34,467 nucleotides of DNA from positions 1 through 34,467 of IMG/VR virus record IMGVR_UViG_3300021197_000128, one strand, 5' to 3'. Each line of letters starts with the position of its first letter. Within the stretch, counting starts at the first letter, position 1. The position numbers and the translations under genes were made by a program. The notes below the pieces were generated by a model, which had not been told where the DNA came from, ran no database searches, and saw nothing but the letters and a program-made list of their open reading frames with translations. This DNA is from a virus. Positions 22,574 to 33,073 of the stretch are shown here, piece after piece.

Positions 22574-23398
22574 TTATAATCCTAATAAAGTTTTTCTGCG
22601 GATAGGCGCACCACCAACAATACCTTGTGCTGATGTTAGAATTGTGCCTTTTGTTCGGCCACGCTTTCTTTCTTCTTCTTCTTCTTCATCACCAGCTCTT
22701 ACAACATCCCTTGGATTTGCAGATCCAGTTGTGTTATCTGGCTGATCTGATCCGCCGCCACTTGGCGGAATATAATCATCATTATCATCACCGCCTAAAT
22801 TATCGTCACCTTCTTCTGGTGGTTCGTATATATCCATACCGCCACCGCCAGCGCCTGGATCTCCACCAGGTTCACCGCCAATGTCCATGCCGCCATCACC
22901 TTGATTGGGATTGCCGCCCATACCTGGATCATCTGGTACTGGATCATCATCTATATCAACACCGCCTGGATCTGGATCTGTTTCTTCTGGTGTAGTTGGA
23001 TCGTCACCAACTATAGATTCATCTTCACCTATACCTTCATCCTGGTCAGTTCCATCTTCTGGTGTGTCTGATCCTGGTTGTCCAGTTTCTGGACTTCCAA
23101 TATCTGATCCACCGCCGCCGCCGCCAGGATCACCTGGTTCATTATCTTGATAACTATCGTCATCATCATCATTATCATCACCTGGGCCTGGACCTGGATC
23201 TGGACTGCTTGGTGGATCTGGATCATAGTCTGGATCTTCTTCTGGTGGATCATAACCGCCATCATCACCGCCGCCGCCGCCGCCACCGCCATCATCTCCT
23301 ATAAAACAGTATGTCGGATCGTTCCAGGGCAACATCTGGCCCAATATGTCCTTTTTTCTGTTTAGTTGGTCTATACCAATATCCAGTTCCAATTCCAT
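22574..23398 (-). CDS. Gly/Asp/Pro-rich acidic protein with TILTS...KTLLG tail
   Basis: 274 residues from the ATG at 23398; an alternative ATG at 23335 (residue 22) would cut the overlap with the acyltransferase gene from 107 to 44 bases, and neither has a well-spaced ribosome site. The middle (about 34-245) is almost only Gly, Asp, Pro, Glu and Ser with runs of up to eight Gly and several GGMDI-type segments, ending in an EEEEEE-like acidic patch and a basic RKRGRTKG. The last 25 residues (GTILTSAQGIVGG ... RKTLLGL) match the tail of the 76-residue protein encoded on the other side of the acyltransferase. The frame is confirmed by this motif. Likely a disordered minor head protein; function unknown. 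Confidence 0.7.
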   Translation of the reverse strand: MELELDIGIDQLNRKKDILGQMLPWNDPTYCFIGDDGGGGGGGGDDGGYDPPEEDPDYDPDPPSSPDPGPGPGDDNDDDDDSYQDNEPGDPGGGGGGSDIGSPETGQPGSDTPEDGTDQDEGIGEDESIVGDDPTTPEETDPDPGGVDIDDDPVPDDPGMGGNPNQGDGGMDIGGEPGGDPGAGGGGMDIYEPPEEGDDNLGGDDNDDYIPPSGGGSDQPDNTTGSANPRDVVRAGDEEEEEERKRGRTKGTILTSAQGIVGGAPIRRKTLLGL

Positions 23399-25488: not shown

Positions 25489-25911
25489 TTACACGATCTC
25501 CAAGTTACCATTGGCCCAAGACAAAGTAACCTGGCCATTATTGCCAGCCGTCTTATCTTCTGCCTTATCCCTAACACCTAATGGCTGCATCTGCCTAATA
25601 TGTTTATCCATATGATCTGCTTCTAATCGTCTACGCTGCACTTCAGCCATTGCAAGCTTTGGATCATCTGGTAATGCCATCTTAACTAAGTCTAGTATCT
25701 GATCCCTCATAACCTCACACTGCAACGCTCTAGCTTTACGATACATAGTATGAGCTTCATCATTCTCTTGTACCCATCTAAGCACAGTACGCCAACTAGG
25801 CAATGTCTTAGTATTGTTACATATCCTGGTTAAGCTTTCACCTTCAGCTATACGCTCACAGATCTTTTCCATCTGTGGTTTTGTAACTCTTATCTTTATG
25901 ATCTTAGCCAT
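25489..25911 (-). CDS. Terminase small subunit, Sf6-like
   Basis: 140 residues. The N-terminal 60 residues form a DNA-binding helix-turn-helix (ICERIAEGESLTRICNNTKTLPSWRTVLRWVQEN), the standard start of Sf6-type TerS, followed by a helical oligomerisation region (MYRKARALQCEVMRDQILDLV, then AEVQRRRLEADHMDKHIRQM). It recognises the packaging site and loads TerL. The start at 25911 is preceded by GGGA; the leader contains a strong terminator (25921-25956) just before it. Confidence 0.88.
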   Translation of the reverse strand: MAKIIKIRVTKPQMEKICERIAEGESLTRICNNTKTLPSWRTVLRWVQENDEAHTMYRKARALQCEVMRDQILDLVKMALPDDPKLAMAEVQRRRLEADHMDKHIRQMQPLGVRDKAEDKTAGNNGQVTLSWANGNLEIV

Positions 25912-25920
25912 AATAATCCC

Positions 25921-25956
25921 AAAAAAATACCTGGCTACTTTGAGGAAATAGCCAGG
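25921..25956 (-). terminator. Rho-independent terminator in the terS leader
   Basis: On the minus strand, an 8-bp perfect stem (CCTGGCTA / TAGCCAGG, 25930-25956) can continue through three inner T-A pairs around a 4-base loop, and is followed two bases later by seven T residues. The run ends ten bases before the terS ATG. Transcripts entering from the right would stop here unless antiterminated; see findings. Confidence 0.8.
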
Positions 25957-26142
25957 CTTTATTTAACTAGTTGAGGTTTTGCAGCTCCCATATCTTATTT
26001 CGCAAATTACTACAAATCCTCGAAAGGAAGCAAAAAATGAACAACTAAAATGAGGTAACAAAGTTAGTTATTCAGATCTTATCAAAAACAGTAATATTTC
26101 TAGATCATTTAGTCAAGCACATTGATTAAATAATATTAATAC

Positions 26143-26190: not shown

Positions 26191-26376
26191 ATGACAGATT
26201 CAATAAGACTAAACAAAGATGATGCCCTGGCATTACAACAGCAATACCATGAAGCATTAGCAGCTGGTGAAAAACAGTTTGTATTTATGGATAGAGATAT
26301 ACTTACAGACTATGCAAAATACATGATAGAGTATCTAAAAACACAAGGCCTATTAGAAGAAGAAACTAAACACTAA
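26191..26376 (+). CDS. Lone rightward 61-residue protein, unknown function
   Basis: 61 residues, acidic, helical: DKDDAL-like start (LNKDDALALQQQYHEALAAGE), FVFMDRDILTDYAKYMIEYLKTQGLLEEE. No family recognised. It has an excellent ribosome site (AAGGAG seven bases before the ATG) and its own operator-bearing promoter. It is convergent with, and overlaps by four bases, the end of the DUF6362-like gene, and is divergent from terS. This isolated, repressor-controlled position would suit a regulator of late expression or a lysogeny/lysis switch factor, but that is inference. Confidence 0.75.
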   Translation: MTDSIRLNKDDALALQQQYHEALAAGEKQFVFMDRDILTDYAKYMIEYLKTQGLLEEETKH

Positions 26377-26756
26377 AGCCGATAATATAATCTAACCAAA
26401 GCATCTTTATATCTACGTTTCACAATCCTAGGATCATTAAGACCTAGGATTTTTGCTATCTTAGTCCACTTAGGACCTCTATCAGTAAATGCAGCTGAAT
26501 GAGCTACCGCCCAAGTAAGCCGTCTATCTTCGTCATCCATCTTTGTTAATGCTAAATCTATAGCTTTATCTAACCTAGTAATCTGATCTGGTGTAGCTTT
26601 TAACCTAGTAACGCCCATAGCATTGTAACCATAAGCAGACCATTCAGTAACATAATCTGGCCAGTTAACCATCTTCTGTTTCCTATAAGCACTAGGCAAC
26701 TTTCTTTCTGTTTCAGCAGCTTCAAAGAATAAATCATTTAACTGCGCTATATCCAT
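26373..26756 (-). CDS. DUF6362-like protein
   Basis: 127 residues. The sequence NWPDYVTEWSAYGYNAMGVTRLKATPDQITRLDKAIDLAL, then DRRLTWAVAHSA and GPKWTKIAKILGLNDPRIVKRRYKDALVRL, agrees with the DUF6362 family pattern as I recall it. The C-terminal part looks like a helix-turn-helix (KWTKIAKILGLNDPRIVKRRY), so it may bind DNA. Last gene of the leftward early operon, coupled to its predecessor by TAATG. Such a place before the late genes would suit a late regulator; unproven. Confidence 0.65.
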   Translation of the reverse strand: MDIAQLNDLFFEAAETERKLPSAYRKQKMVNWPDYVTEWSAYGYNAMGVTRLKATPDQITRLDKAIDLALTKMDDEDRRLTWAVAHSAAFTDRGPKWTKIAKILGLNDPRIVKRRYKDALVRLYYRL

Positions 26757-27133
26757 TACTTGCGCTCATTTCTAAGCTTGTCATCCATTTCTCTAAGCCA
26801 ATTAAGTTTATCAAATATGGGGATATGCTCTAGGTTAATTACTAGGTCCTTATAAGCATCTTCTGAATATCTTTTTCTTAGTTTAGATAATACTCGTCTT
26901 TGCATTTCATCAATGGGAAACTTTGCGCTACGATTTACTGCTGCTGCATAAGCTGGATTCTTTTTCTTAGCCATTAGCTTAGCTAAGCTCTTTAACTTAG
27001 CTAAGTTATTATTCTTAGCTAAGCTATCTAAGCTATTTTTTTTATTTAAAGGATTTAATTGAGTGCTAAGATGTGCGCTAAGCTTAGCTACATGATCTGG
27101 CTTAGAAAAAATTTTACTCTTATCACGATTCAT
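26756..27133 (-). CDS. Basic protein whose gene holds an iteron cluster; possible replication protein
   Basis: 125 residues, very Lys/Leu/Asn-rich in the N-terminal 65 residues, where LAK recurs (SLAKNNNLAKLKSLAKL). The C-terminal 60 residues (FPIDEMQRRVLSKLRKRYSEDAYKDL ... IFDKLNWLREMDDKL) are helical. No family recognised. The repeated LAK codons form palindromes at 18-bp intervals, next to an AT-rich tract, as in the lambda O gene. It overlaps the upstream gene by 11 bases and the downstream one by one base. A role in replication is inference from the DNA pattern only. Confidence 0.6.
   Translation of the reverse strand: MNRDKSKIFSKPDHVAKLSAHLSTQLNPLNKKNSLDSLAKNNNLAKLKSLAKLMAKKKNPAYAAAVNRSAKFPIDEMQRRVLSKLRKRYSEDAYKDLVINLEHIPIFDKLNWLREMDDKLRNERK
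26978..27060. repeat. Three 18-bp-spaced CTTAGCTAAG iterons plus AT-rich tract; candidate origin
   Basis: The 10-bp palindrome CTTAGCTAAG is present at 26978-26987, 26996-27005 and 27014-27023, start to start exactly 18 bp; a 9/10 match lies near 27083-27092. It adjoins a tract at 27035-27060 made of A and T with three G. Iterons beside an AT-rich segment inside a gene are the layout of the lambda origin. No binding protein is known. Confidence 0.4.
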
Positions 27134-27404
27134 CTGTCAACCCCCCAAATAAAAATAAGTAATTTGCACCATCATAAATGTTGTCTGGCGTAGGTTTGCC
27201 GCAATCCATTCTACCATTTTTTACTTCTGACATTCCCCTGGCTACATCAGCACCAACAAACTTTTCACCTGGTTTTAACTTATCTGCATAAACAAGATTC
27301 CACCTGGTTGCTATGTTATCAAATAACTTTGCATAATCACCATATGCCGTTCCCCTATCCTTCAAGATCTGTGCAGCTGTTTCAGCGTACTGGTGTGGCT
27401 TCAT
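27123..27404 (-). CDS. DUF6378-like protein
   Basis: 93 residues. ETAAQILKDRGTAYGDYAKLFDNIATRWNLVY, then KFVGADVARGMSEVKNGRMDCGKPTPDNIYDGANYLFLF, has the layout of DUF6378 proteins (R..xYG..xxN, DVA..M...K..R, DN..D...Y). The family is common in phage early regions and of unknown function. The ATG overlaps the preceding stop (ATGA), showing translational coupling. Confidence 0.7.
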   Translation of the reverse strand: MKPHQYAETAAQILKDRGTAYGDYAKLFDNIATRWNLVYADKLKPGEKFVGADVARGMSEVKNGRMDCGKPTPDNIYDGANYLFLFGGLTDES

Positions 27405-27562
27405 TTAACTATCCTATCAAAATGATCCACCTTTAACTCTTGTGCTTTCCATCCTTGTTTTTCAGCTTCAAGTTCTGCTGGCGTTAATGGCTTTTGTTTT
27501 TTCTTGAGTGCATTACAAATCATTCCCACATGATTAGCGCCAGTTCGATTCGGTTTTGTCAT
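27401..27562 (-). CDS. 53-residue protein in the early operon
   Basis: 53 residues, basic (KKKQKP in the middle) and helical in the second half (LTPAELEAEKQGWKAQEL). The start overlaps the stop of the VRR-NUC gene as ATGA, and its stop overlaps the start of the DUF6378-like gene as ATGA. These two exact overlaps make it a real gene in spite of its size. No family recognised. Confidence 0.7.
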   Translation of the reverse strand: MTKPNRTGANHVGMICNALKKKQKPLTPAELEAEKQGWKAQELKVDHFDRIVK

Positions 27563-27948
27563 ACTTGTTTCCCCCTTAGTTTTATTAATCCATTTAAATA
27601 TTCATGTACTTGTTCTACAGATTTGCACAGCTGCCAGAAGCAGCCAGCCAGCTCTAATTTATCTCGAATGATAGCCTGGTTTTCTGATAGCTTGCCGCCA
27701 TGCCGCTTAACCTCAATAAAGATAGAAATAGAGTTTCCAACCTTGGTTTGATCTCCAGGTACAAATATTTCTATGTCTGGCCAACCTGGTTTAGTTCCCA
27801 TCTTTTTCTGTTTGACTTTATAAGCCACATGACGTTTTCCTTCATTCGGTGAATGATGCCATATAGCGCCTGGTGGCAAGACTACATCAAGCCATTGTCC
27901 GATTCGCACATGAAGTTGATCTTCAGTTTCTACGGATGATAAAGTCAT
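27559..27948 (-). CDS. VRR-NUC domain nuclease
   Basis: 129 residues with the full VRR-NUC set of the PD-(D/E)XK superfamily: an N-terminal Glu (E9 in ETEDQLH), HHSPNEGKR (31-39), GTKPGWPDIEIF with P57-D58, FIEVKR with E79 and K81, and Q91 after LSEN. Stand-alone VRR-NUC proteins are common in phages and often act on branched DNA. It overlaps the end of the Cro-like gene by 26 bases, so both are co-translated. Likely role: resolving replication or recombination intermediates before packaging. Confidence 0.88.
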   Translation of the reverse strand: MTLSSVETEDQLHVRIGQWLDVVLPPGAIWHHSPNEGKRHVAYKVKQKKMGTKPGWPDIEIFVPGDQTKVGNSISIFIEVKRHGGKLSENQAIIRDKLELAGCFWQLCKSVEQVHEYLNGLIKLRGKQV

Positions 27949-28135
27949 TAGGCGTGACCGATCCCATAGTTACTTCAAGAATCAAGCTTAAATGCCTCGC
28001 AGATGGCGTGAGTGCTTGCTTATGCTGCTTTGGTAAGCACCATCTTCTAGCTACAGTAGCCTCTTTAAAACCAAGTTTTTCAGCTAATTTCTTGTAACTT
28101 AAATTTTTTTCTAATCTATATTCTTCTAATGTCAT
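27923..28135 (-). CDS. Cro-like helix-turn-helix protein
   Basis: 70 residues: LEEYRLEKNLSYKKLAEKLGFKEATVARRWCLPK forms the HTH, followed by ARHLSLILEVTMGSVTPNDF, a close with T-G-x-V-x-P-N-D-F found in many Cro/CI-type proteins. First gene of the leftward early operon and divergent from the larger HTH protein at 28366, the arrangement of a lysis-lysogeny switch. The leader is short: a TATAAT (28167-28162) lies just 27 bases before the ATG and no Shine-Dalgarno is evident. Confidence 0.8.
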   Translation of the reverse strand: MTLEEYRLEKNLSYKKLAEKLGFKEATVARRWCLPKQHKQALTPSARHLSLILEVTMGSVTPNDFIIRRN

Positions 28136-28365: not shown

Positions 28366-29067
28366 ATGAACGTAGTAAGGCAAAATAAAGAACAAAACAA
28401 AACGAGTACAGTAAAAATGCCTAATAACTTGGATGCCATGATAAGAAGATCTGGTCTGCTAAATAGAGAAGTAGCAGAAAGAAAAGGTTGCCGCCCAGAA
28501 ACAGTATCAAGACAAATATCTGGAGCATTAGGATTATCAGTAAAAGATGCTGAAGAATATGCAGTGATCTTAGGCTGCACGGCACAAGATGTATTGTTCG
28601 TACAGAACGCTGTGCCTTTGTTTGGCACACTTGATGAAGATATTGTAACAGTTAGATCTATCACTGATAAAGGTATATCTTATTATATACCCTATCCATT
28701 ATCTGATGATAAAAGAATTGTATTAGCTGAACATACTGCGCAAAATAAACGCTGGGCCAATGGCAGAATGTATATATTCAGTAATCTGTGTATTGAAAAA
28801 CAAGCTGTAGATGAAAACTGTTTTATGAGATTATCTATAATGAAAATCAAAGGTGAAGAACTTGTCCGATTCGGTGTTTGTTATCCAGAACCAGGCGGAA
28901 CATTCTCTGTTGGATTTAATTCTGATACTCACACGACAACAGACCAGGGCAAATCAAGAACATTAACAGAAAATGATATAAGGCGTGGATTACACCTAGT
29001 TTGGGCCACACCAATATTATCGTGTATATTCCAGCCAGATCTATTAGATATACAAGAAAAAAAATAA
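28366..29067 (+). CDS. XRE-type HTH repressor-like protein
   Basis: 233 residues. An N-terminal HTH (about 20-75: LDAMIRRSGLLNREVAERKGCRPETVSRQISG) is followed by PLFGTLDEDIVTV, which resembles the entry to an S24/LexA-like C-terminal domain, and beta-rich segments (RIVLAEHTA, RFGVCYPEPGGTFSVG). I see no Ser-Lys dyad of the self-cleaving kind (no GxSM-like segment), so induction by RecA-stimulated cleavage is doubtful. GAGG lies nine bases before the ATG. Divergent from the Cro-like gene. Probable lysogeny repressor acting on the TGACG operators; assignment of the operators to this protein is inference. Confidence 0.7.
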   Translation: MNVVRQNKEQNKTSTVKMPNNLDAMIRRSGLLNREVAERKGCRPETVSRQISGALGLSVKDAEEYAVILGCTAQDVLFVQNAVPLFGTLDEDIVTVRSITDKGISYYIPYPLSDDKRIVLAEHTAQNKRWANGRMYIFSNLCIEKQAVDENCFMRLSIMKIKGEELVRFGVCYPEPGGTFSVGFNSDTHTTTDQGKSRTLTENDIRRGLHLVWATPILSCIFQPDLLDIQEKK

Positions 29068-30085: not shown

Positions 30086-30192
30086 AAGATCCCTGGTTGT
30101 GGATAAGTGAGTTTATTGGCGCTGTAACTATATTCGCATTTTTTTATTTTTTGATTTGGATTTTAGCCATTTTATTTCCAGGAGCTATGTAG
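30082..30192 (+). CDS. 36-residue single-pass membrane peptide, GTG start
   Basis: GTG at 30082 overlaps the nuclease stop (GTGA), with GGGGGA four bases upstream; the stop TAG is immediately followed by the ATG of the next gene. The peptide has a short polar start (KDPWLWISE) and one hydrophobic helix of about 22 residues (IGAVTIFAFFYFLIWILAI). Exact fit between two genes and a good ribosome site support it. Function unknown; a membrane effector is possible. Confidence 0.6.
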   Translation: MKDPWLWISEFIGAVTIFAFFYFLIWILAILFPGAM

Positions 30193-31615: not shown

Positions 31616-31853
31616 TAAAGCTTTATTCAGTATGCACGAAGCATCCATAATATTGTTTGGACCATGTTCGACAAGAAGCACACAGTACAATAGAACAAGA
31701 CGAATGTGTAATAATGGAGCTTTAGATTATATTGTTGATGGTGATAAAAAATATATCAAAAGAAAAACATTAGAAGATTTAATGGGATCTGAAGCATTAA
31801 ATGAAGCTCTACAAAATTTAGATAATGTAGTAGAGCTTCATCCTGGTAATTAG
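31596..31853 (+). CDS. Excisionase-like HTH protein
   Basis: 85 residues. The core (about 13-65) reads ASIILFGPCSTRSTQYNRTRRMCNNG, then IVDGDKKYIKRKTLEDLMG, like excisionase/MerR-type winged helices (helix, short turn, YI-R wing). Its end overlaps the convergent integrase gene by four bases, the right place for Xis. Start at 31596 is preferred because GGAG stands 6 bases upstream; the internal ATG at 31632 lacks a ribosome site. Probably promotes prophage excision. Confidence 0.65.
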   Translation: MVLTIYNKALFSMHEASIILFGPCSTRSTQYNRTRRMCNNGALDYIVDGDKKYIKRKTLEDLMGSEALNEALQNLDNVVELHPGN

Positions 31854-33073
31854 AAGTTAATACTATTCATGTCATCATGCAGTTTTTGTTTCTTAGCTAA
31901 GTCTGTAAGCCAATGGCCATAAACTTTTTGAGTAATATCTATACTGCTATGGCCCATGAGGTTTGATACTGTCCAAACATCATCATAATATTCAAGACAT
32001 TTACTAGCATAATAATGTCTAAGGTCATGCCATCTCATATGCTTTTCACTAATCTTAGAAACAACCTTTTGTAACTGCTCTTTCCAATGGCTTCTACCAA
32101 CCATAGTATTGTATTTAGTTCCAAAAACAAAGTGTGATCCGTCTGGTCTGCCTTTTTTAATATACAGCTCTTGCAGCTCCCTAATCAAATCACCACGAAT
32201 AGGCACAGTTCTATTAGATGTATCAGTTTTAACTTTACCAACACTATTCTTTACGACTTCATTATTTATAACAACTTTTAACTTAGCGCTTTTAGAAACT
32301 AAAACTTCAAATGTTTTAAAATTAATTTTATCCCAGGTTAAAGCTCGTTGTTCTCCAGATCTTAGACCAGTTCTGCAAGCAAACTTATAAGCAAGCTTCA
32401 TAGATTTAGGTAAATTTTGCTCAATCTCATGTATAAAATCAGTAGATAACTTTTCTAAAGGCATATCGTCATCAATAACTGGCTTCTTAAATTCAGCATC
32501 AAGCATAGGATTTTGAGCTAAACAGTTTCTACTTTTACCAAAAGCTAAAAGCTTATTCAGACATGATCTCATTTCTTTTACAGTCTTATAGCTTCTCTTA
32601 CCCCTTCTGCCGCTATTAAATAATGTAGGTAGTATGTAAGTTTCACAATGCTCAACAGTAAGATCCCTGGGCCTTAGTTCGCCAACAGATTTACCGCCAA
32701 CTTTAATTGCTAACATAGTGTCAAACTGATATTTGTATTTATCGAAATAGTCTGGCAGCGGTTTGCCACCTTTCATGTTTTTATATTCTCTATAATAAAA
32801 TGTTCTAAGAGGATCATTGTTTTTTATTCTTTGATCCCATTCATACATCATATCTTCATCTGGAAAATCACCAAGTAAATCTTTGATACTCCAGTTATCT
32901 GAGTCCTCTACTTTTTGCTTTTCTAACTTTGCAAAACTTTCAAGTTCTTTTTTAGCCTGGCTAAATGTTTCATAAAATTTAGTGCCACCACCGAAAGAAC
33001 GTAGATCTAAACGCCATGAATTTATTTTTAAACTTAACTTTTTTTTGTCTTGTTTTATATATTTCTGAATCAT
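31850..33073 (-). CDS. int: Tyrosine-type integrase
   Basis: 407 residues. The catalytic domain shows RTGLRSGEQRAL (R238), the beta-hairpin lysine VKTDTSNRTVPI (about K282), HDLRH (H349, R352), MGHSS (H375) and the nucleophile in VYGHW (Y385). The N-terminal 80 residues are a basic arm-binding-type domain followed by a SAM-like core-binding domain. It recombines the attP-like site upstream with a host tRNA gene. AAGGAG seven bases before the ATG. The promoter overlaps an operator-like inverted repeat. Confidence 0.95.
   Translation of the reverse strand: MIQKYIKQDKKKLSLKINSWRLDLRSFGGGTKFYETFSQAKKELESFAKLEKQKVEDSDNWSIKDLLGDFPDEDMMYEWDQRIKNNDPLRTFYYREYKNMKGGKPLPDYFDKYKYQFDTMLAIKVGGKSVGELRPRDLTVEHCETYILPTLFNSGRRGKRSYKTVKEMRSCLNKLLAFGKSRNCLAQNPMLDAEFKKPVIDDDMPLEKLSTDFIHEIEQNLPKSMKLAYKFACRTGLRSGEQRALTWDKINFKTFEVLVSKSAKLKVVINNEVVKNSVGKVKTDTSNRTVPIRGDLIRELQELYIKKGRPDGSHFVFGTKYNTMVGRSHWKEQLQKVVSKISEKHMRWHDLRHYYASKCLEYYDDVWTVSNLMGHSSIDITQKVYGHWLTDLAKKQKLHDDMNSINF

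Follow-up and report, generated by a model that had tools for sequence, protein, structure and literature searches.

The origin of replication of phage lambda lies inside gene O. Dimers of the O protein bind four inverted-repeat iterons there, bend the DNA, and open an AT-rich region of 40 bp; transcription across the origin is required, and DnaA sites are located near its promoters (according to PMC5043065 and PMC3985674). Iterons can also shape the protein: as stated in PMC7466680, the O proteins of Stx phages are 13 residues longer because the gene contains six iterons and not four. An origin without an initiator gene has been reported for mycobacteriophages, whose RNA-based prophage origins need a region expressing a noncoding RNA (PMC7157519). 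For the Skadi phages, a lambda-like helicase loader was reported, and helicase, primase, and DNA polymerase were stated to be absent (PMC10504331). In the open-access literature searched, no description of an origin was found for the HTVC010P-type phages. Together with their relatives, these pelagiphages belong to the common viruses of the sea.

The DNA analyzed here, referred to as the window, is a virus contig of 34,467 bases (IMG/VR record IMGVR_UViG_3300021197_000128, positions 1 to 34,467). Its portal protein shares 63% identity with that of Pelagibacter phage Lederberg and about 59-63% with those of other HTVC010P-type pelagiphages. Adjoining the portal gene, a 274-residue protein consisting mostly of Gly, Asp, Pro, and Glu is encoded (22574-23398, minus strand). 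A repressor-like (CI-like) gene at 28366-29067 gave weak matches to repressor families. The window also has an integrase-like gene (31850-33073), assigned by reading the sequence; the report on the Skadi phages (PMC10504331) does not mention an integrase. The gene order on the minus strand is cro-like, VRR-NUC, DUF6378, the gene carrying the repeat array, DUF6362 (Q-like), and terminase, with the following features:

27923-28135, minus strand: cro-like HTH gene (open reading frame and family search)
27559-27948, minus strand: VRR-NUC gene (open reading frame and family search)
27123-27404, minus strand: DUF6378 gene (open reading frame and family search)
27111..27140, minus strand: promoter-like sequence TTGACA-N18-TAAAAT (11/12 consensus bases), overlapping the start of the 125-codon gene and conserved in relatives
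27065..27088, no strand: promoter-proximal half of the array, GCTAAG and GCTAAGCTTAGC (27077-27088), with codons nearly fixed across 18 proteins
27032..27062, no strand: AT-rich tract between the array halves, a candidate unwinding region with largely conserved sequence
26978..27032, no strand: three CTTAGCTAAG palindromes at 18-bp steps, plus CTAAG at 27028
26756..27133, minus strand: 125-codon gene carrying the array, with a variable, repeat-encoded N-terminus and a conserved helical C-terminus
26373..26756, minus strand: DUF6362 gene (Pfam DUF6362), predicted fold nearest antiterminator Q21
25929..25957, minus strand: intrinsic terminator, a 12-pair stem followed by ATTTTTTT, just ahead of the terS gene
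25489-25911, minus strand: small terminase (terS) gene (open reading frame and family search)

According to the open reading frames, their families, and the Q21-like fold of the next gene, the array is located within the cro operon and upstream of the Q-like gene. Between a cro-like and a putative Q21-like gene, it would occupy the position of O and the origin in lambda. No polymerase, primase, helicase, or initiator was recognized among the 12 early-region proteins scanned or in the ORF lists of relatives. A helicase loader (P) gene was likewise not found among these 12 proteins; the gene after the array gene is DUF6362. The cumulative GC skew of the window has its minimum near 28 kb, where the gene direction switches, and its sign is flipped by the integrase gene; because the skew tracks the coding strand, it says nothing about the position of an origin.

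The unit of the array, CTTAGCTAAG, is a perfect palindrome of 10 bp, identical to its own reverse complement. Exact copies are located at 26978, 26996, and 27014, at the exact 18-bp steps claimed in the preliminary description, and the fourth near-copy mentioned there, 69 bases on, was found to be CTTAGCTACA at 27083, inside GCTAAGCTTAGC. The adjoining AT-rich stretch was confirmed as well: the tract (about 27032-27062) reaches up to 31 A/T per 36 bases, a value attained by 0.4% of the 36-base windows of the genome. When up to one mismatch was allowed, CTTAGCTAAG occurred at six sites in the window compared with 2.04 expected, and four of the sites were exact. The half-sites CTTAGC/GCTAAG are grouped near the three palindromes of the array. 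Of all 380-base stretches in the window, those richest in CTTAG/CTAAG pentamers lie over the 125-codon gene (15 of 72 pentamers). The array, about 120 bp including the AT tract, occupies a single place in the genome. The fourth exact copy, overlooked earlier, is isolated at the 3' end of the integrase gene (31892-31901), where it is also read as LAK; it is probably a chance occurrence, the L160 integrase having LAR there.

Within the array gene, the repeats encode LAK, and it had been proposed from the identical codons that the conservation is at the DNA level. This proposal was supported both by codon randomization, which failed to reproduce the array, and by the fixed codons of diverged relatives. 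The gene has 15 pentamers, more than any randomization gave: 20,000 random synonymous draws using the codon usage of the window yielded 2.56 on average and at most 9, and permuting the gene's own synonymous codons yielded 5.78 on average and at most 13. For three full decamers in the gene, codon-preserving randomization gave a P of 0.00035. Pentamers or half-sites are present in all three reading-frame offsets, and the CTTAGC/GCTAAG hexamers of the gene all fall within the stretch for residues 13-56 (10/10). Relatives of the 125-residue protein were obtained in two IMG/VR scans (7, then 30 loci, down to 57% identity), and the LAK codons were read in 28 of the 30 loci and the window, which together represent 24 distinct genes. 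Relatives keeping LAK with different codons would speak against a constraint on the DNA. This did not occur: the LAKs of the repeat region were encoded by TTA GCT AAG in 58 of 60 cases, with one TTA GCA AAG and one TTA GCT AAA, and those of the C-terminal part by CTG GCA AAG in 5 of 5. Among columns with a conserved amino acid in 18 distinct proteins, codon heterozygosity was 0.078 in the array (17 columns) versus 0.400 in the rest (35 columns; P 3.4e-5). On these comparisons, the array is conserved at the DNA level. The copy number of the 18-nt unit differs among relatives, so that the linker of the protein follows the DNA, and its length variation resembles that of Stx-phage O, in which the iteron number is reported to set the protein length (PMC7466680). 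With a repeat-length statistic by which the lambda iterons are recovered, P was only 0.087 for the window gene, since a repeat in the protein brings DNA repeats with it; the evidence that counts here comes from the motif and codon tests.

The preliminary description had also considered the gene holding the iterons as a possible initiator. This suggestion was unsupported, since the element is kept in 11 representatives of the locus without the gene (see below), the protein matches no initiator family, and its repeat-encoded part was modeled with the low confidence that disordered stretches give. The AlphaFold model of the 125-residue protein had a mean pLDDT of 65.8, with values <60 in the N-terminal half and mostly 80-90 in the C-terminal helices; a fold search with this model returned no chain at Z 5 or above. 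Pfam gave no match, and the sole match of the protein was phrog_15467, to which no function is assigned. Searches of a phage collection with this protein and, in two queries, the DUF6362 protein gave no matches. In a scan of genome contigs, one relative was detected, L114 (PKDT01000065.1), on a contig in a Flavobacteriales MAG. Because of this placement it gives no host, and the contig is probably that of a phage, misassigned to this MAG during binning. The 125-residue protein may be accessory to the origin. Its N-terminus would be a by-product of the DNA sites, growing and shrinking by six residues because these sites sit within the gene.

A model of the neighboring DUF6362 protein built from 44 sequences (mean pLDDT 80.6, pTM 0.76) had three Q21 entries as its top PDB matches, followed by sigma region 4; the Z scores of 8.2, 8.0, and 7.8 are near the range of common helical arrangements. 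The best match, 6p1c (Z 8.2, VIA-align), covered residues 1-126, and the top matches extended over 108 residues with an rmsd of 3.2-3.3. The predicted fold and the gene position ahead of the terminase are thus like those of antiterminator Q21, whereas the identity is only about 11% and Pfam reported DUF6362 without any Q-family match. Q proteins are described at equivalent positions in phage genomes (PMC7171158), and the antiterminator GafZ of Caulobacter GTAs is a related alphaproteobacterial case (PMC11150451). The predicted terminator between the DUF6362 gene and terS fits a late operon under Q control. A function in late-gene antitermination is likely on the basis of the predicted fold and the gene position; no paper naming DUF6362 was found in the open-access literature.

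For a comparison of the locus beyond the relatives of the 125-residue protein, DUF6362-anchored relatives were collected (the best 80 of 156 and the best 80 of 280), of which 104 loci with sufficient upstream sequence yielded 55 representatives. In the window, TTGACA-N18-TAAAAT is the best site of the scanned region and the only one with at most one mismatch in the 34-kb record. TTGAC with a −10 box of at least 5/6 heads the element in 43 of the 55 representatives, at a spacing of 18 in 33 and of 16 in 10. The density of this promoter-like sequence is 72 times that elsewhere, and it is also present where the neighboring gene differs. In most representatives a gene is present that spans 89-131 codons, and its product varies at the N-terminus but is conserved in the helical C-terminal part. 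In 11 (L106, L109, L110, L112, L113, L119-L122, L126, and L127), promoter, repeats, and hairpins cover about 200 bases, and no protein of the 125-residue type was seen. The pairing of the hairpin 3' of the repeats is kept in these gene-less representatives through changes on both sides, and two of the sequences, folded singly, had a stability above that of shuffles. Outside the window clade the arrays are weak: the repeat statistic reached P<=0.05 in 21 of 54 elements versus 2 of 54 and 1 of 52 controls. The enrichment tests on the representatives treat related loci as separate and ignore shared ancestry, so that the significance is overstated.

Several variants of the element were observed. 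In L091-L102, most of the array precedes the main ORF (by about 80 bases), and it is read by a short leader ORF of about 20 codons that ends just before a shortened protein gene. A dyad with a 3-base loop follows the −10 box directly in L106, L109-L110, L112-L113, and L115-L127, with changes in step on both sides (e.g., CGGC-GCA-GCCG, CGAC-GAA-GTCG, TGGC-GTA-GCCA). It is also found in with-gene loci such as L075, L128, and L131 and is absent from the window clade; it might represent an operator or a stable DNA hairpin.

Exact DnaA boxes (TTATCCACA) were concentrated in the element of relatives. The 11 gene-less representatives contain 16 in 2.7 kb of element versus 6 in 55.7 kb of flank, and the 44 with-gene representatives 5 in 18.6 kb versus 1 in 207.8 kb. 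An exact box is present in the element of all 11 gene-less representatives (11/11) and of 4 of the 44 with the gene (L131, L133, L143, and L144). The boxes are located at different positions in different groups, which argues for their repeated gain. In each gene-less element, the right-hand box shares bases with the GTG start codon of the Q-like gene, so that the conservation of this box may be partly coding. The other box is located upstream, ahead of the promoter; in L155 it lies just beyond the stop of the upstream gene, and in L153 it is covered by an opposite-strand ORF that is probably spurious. This upstream box is exact in 6 of 13 aligned rows and has one or two mismatches in the other 7. 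In 8 of the 13 rows, at least 8 consecutive T stand directly before the right-hand box, and a T run next to a DnaA box is an order like that of oriC. With TTATCCACA or near-matches at both ends and the T run, the gene-less relatives resemble DnaA-dependent origins of the oriC type, unlike the window clade, which has no such boxes. No exact box was found in the element of the window or its close clade, where the nearest sites have two mismatches and are as frequent as elsewhere; this is the main weakness of the origin reading for the window. The only exact TTATCCACA of the window is located between two early genes at 30098-30106 (minus strand), 3 kb from the array.

In cultured relatives (HTVC010P and nine other isolates, 10 of 19 matching records), the corresponding place ahead of terS is occupied by a gene whose product has about 212-232 residues and is annotated either as hypothetical or as a transcriptional regulator. 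HTVC010P gp57 weakly matched the replication initiation O-like phrog_678 (E 4e-4). In the linker region of this O-like gene, the longest direct repeat is at 22 nt in 8 of the 10 phages and at 21 in HTVC034P, and HTVC203P lacks such a repeat. A 22-nt step does not keep the reading frame, which makes this repeat a DNA feature. For nine phages the repeat-length statistic lay between P 0.002 and 0.147, and it failed for HTVC203P (P 1.0); applied to lambda O, it recovered the annotated iterons (P 0.010; NC_001416, 39034-39118). The window array lies in the same place, between the cro-like gene and terS, and shares with the O-like gene and its AGATAGCCG repeats the property of intragenic DNA repeats in different reading frames. 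However, the repeat sequence and spacing differ, and the cultured phages encode a winged-helix O-like protein, to which the 125-residue family showed no significant relationship: a single stretch (K..N..Y..A[IV]) was aligned, with an hhalign probability of 10%. In L035 (31592-32278) and L162-L169, out-of-frame 22-nt repeats in the O-like gene form a candidate origin that is not annotated in the records.

The lambda comparison drawn in the preliminary description holds by layout and gene order. Like the lambda origin in gene O, the window has inverted-repeat, candidate initiator sites that follow one another at intervals of about 18-24 bp within an early gene between cro and Q, an adjoining AT-rich stretch (about 40 bp in lambda), and an array through which transcription would pass from the promoter-like sequence upstream. 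The boxes of the relatives correspond to the DnaA sites that the sources place near the lambda origin promoters (PMC5043065, PMC3985674). The window differs from lambda in its sites, which flank the AT tract on either side and are perfect palindromes of 10 bp, in the promoter-like sequence of its own directly ahead of the array, and in the gene after the array gene, which is not a helicase loader. The array gene itself is not O-like, so that the locus would work like the lambda origin and not be a member of its family. With the RNA-based origins of mycobacteriophages it would share a phage origin without an initiator gene; unlike these prophage-plasmid origins, which PMC7157519 places beside parABS, the window has an integrase, and relatives carry DnaA boxes on either side of the element.

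From the DNA-level constraint, the conserved architecture with its promoter-like sequence, the location, and the box enrichment in relatives, we infer an origin function that would involve site binding by an initiator, melting, and replication. We put the probability that array and promoter form a replication-origin module working like the lambda origin at roughly 0.5. The argument is carried by the qualitative points, namely the differing box positions, the loss of the gene with the element kept, and the same place as the repeat-bearing O-like gene of cultured relatives. The persistence of promoter and repeats with covarying hairpins in the gene-less representatives, the exact DnaA boxes concentrated in the element of relatives, the conservation of the array DNA, the lambda-like order cro-Q-terS, and the fact that no polymerase, primase, helicase, or initiator was recognized among the proteins scanned also speak for an origin. 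The box-free element of the window clade, the weak arrays outside this clade, and the lack of a candidate initiator protein speak against it, and palindromic sites beside a promoter would also fit repressor operators.

This last point leads to the main rival, a regulatory module in which an internal promoter of the early operon and operators bound by the cro-like, CI-like, or Q-like protein or by host DnaA would time the Q-like gene and hence the late genes. The promoter-like sequence at the head of most elements, the palindromic half-sites, the Q-like next gene, and the operator-like dyad straight after the −10 box, which changes on both sides in gene-less relatives, agree with such a module. 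We nevertheless consider it less likely than an origin, since phage operators usually also flank the repressor gene and the array is found in a single place, its extent of about 120 bp with an AT tract is unfavorable, and an operator needs neither DnaA boxes nor an AT-rich tract. A Q-dependent promoter with its own terminator was dropped as a candidate: under strict criteria, a terminator-like site followed the Q-like gene in 6 of 46 representatives, and none of the 46 elements contained one, which argues against a Q-type promoter-terminator unit.

A structured leader RNA, either a put-type antiterminator or an RNA acting as replication primer or regulator, is improbable. It could fold through pairing of neighboring palindromes in the window (leader z-score −3.2) or through the long hairpins of the gene-less relatives (z −2.9), whose changes on both sides recur in several sequences. 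Perfect palindromes fold trivially, however, no Rfam match was obtained for four sources, nothing corresponding to the long hairpin exists in the window clade, and the number of 18-nt units, and hence the fold, varies among relatives. Repeated sites also occur in cos and pac regions, and the terminase genes start about 1 kb downstream of the array. A packaging site bound by the small terminase is still rather less probable than a leader RNA, because the promoter, the DnaA boxes, and the position ahead of the Q-like gene would be unexpected and because the terminal repeat of the Skadi phages, as given in PMC10504331, holds terL and not the array locus. Hardly credible is the reading that the repeat only encodes a disordered linker and that its DNA has no role. 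The repeats do encode six-residue LAK units, and their copy number variation resembles slippage; the fixed codons, the occurrence in three reading frames, and the element kept where the gene is absent contradict this explanation, the simple form of which was ruled out by the codon tests.

If the locus is an origin, the promoter (27140-27111, minus strand) would drive transcription through the palindromic sites flanking the AT-rich tract, and an initiator on these sites, aided by transcription, would melt the tract, onto which host helicase and polymerase could then be loaded. In relatives with DnaA boxes, host DnaA would be the likely initiator. Because promoter and repeats outlive the gene, the binder would not be the 125-residue protein, at least in the gene-less group. 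Tentatively, three interchangeable replication starts might be distinguished at this one locus of an abundant marine phage group: an O-like initiator gene with iterons in the cultured pelagiphages, a noncoding origin with DnaA boxes but no phage initiator in the gene-less relatives, and an iteron array in the gene of a small non-O protein in the window. The initiator would be swapped, and the position, preceding either the Q-like gene or the terminase genes, would be kept. The Skadi phages are reported to have no DNA polymerase of their own (PMC10504331). With a defined origin locus, it could be asked how pelagiphages take over host replication, and such a locus would show how an origin changes its initiator without moving.
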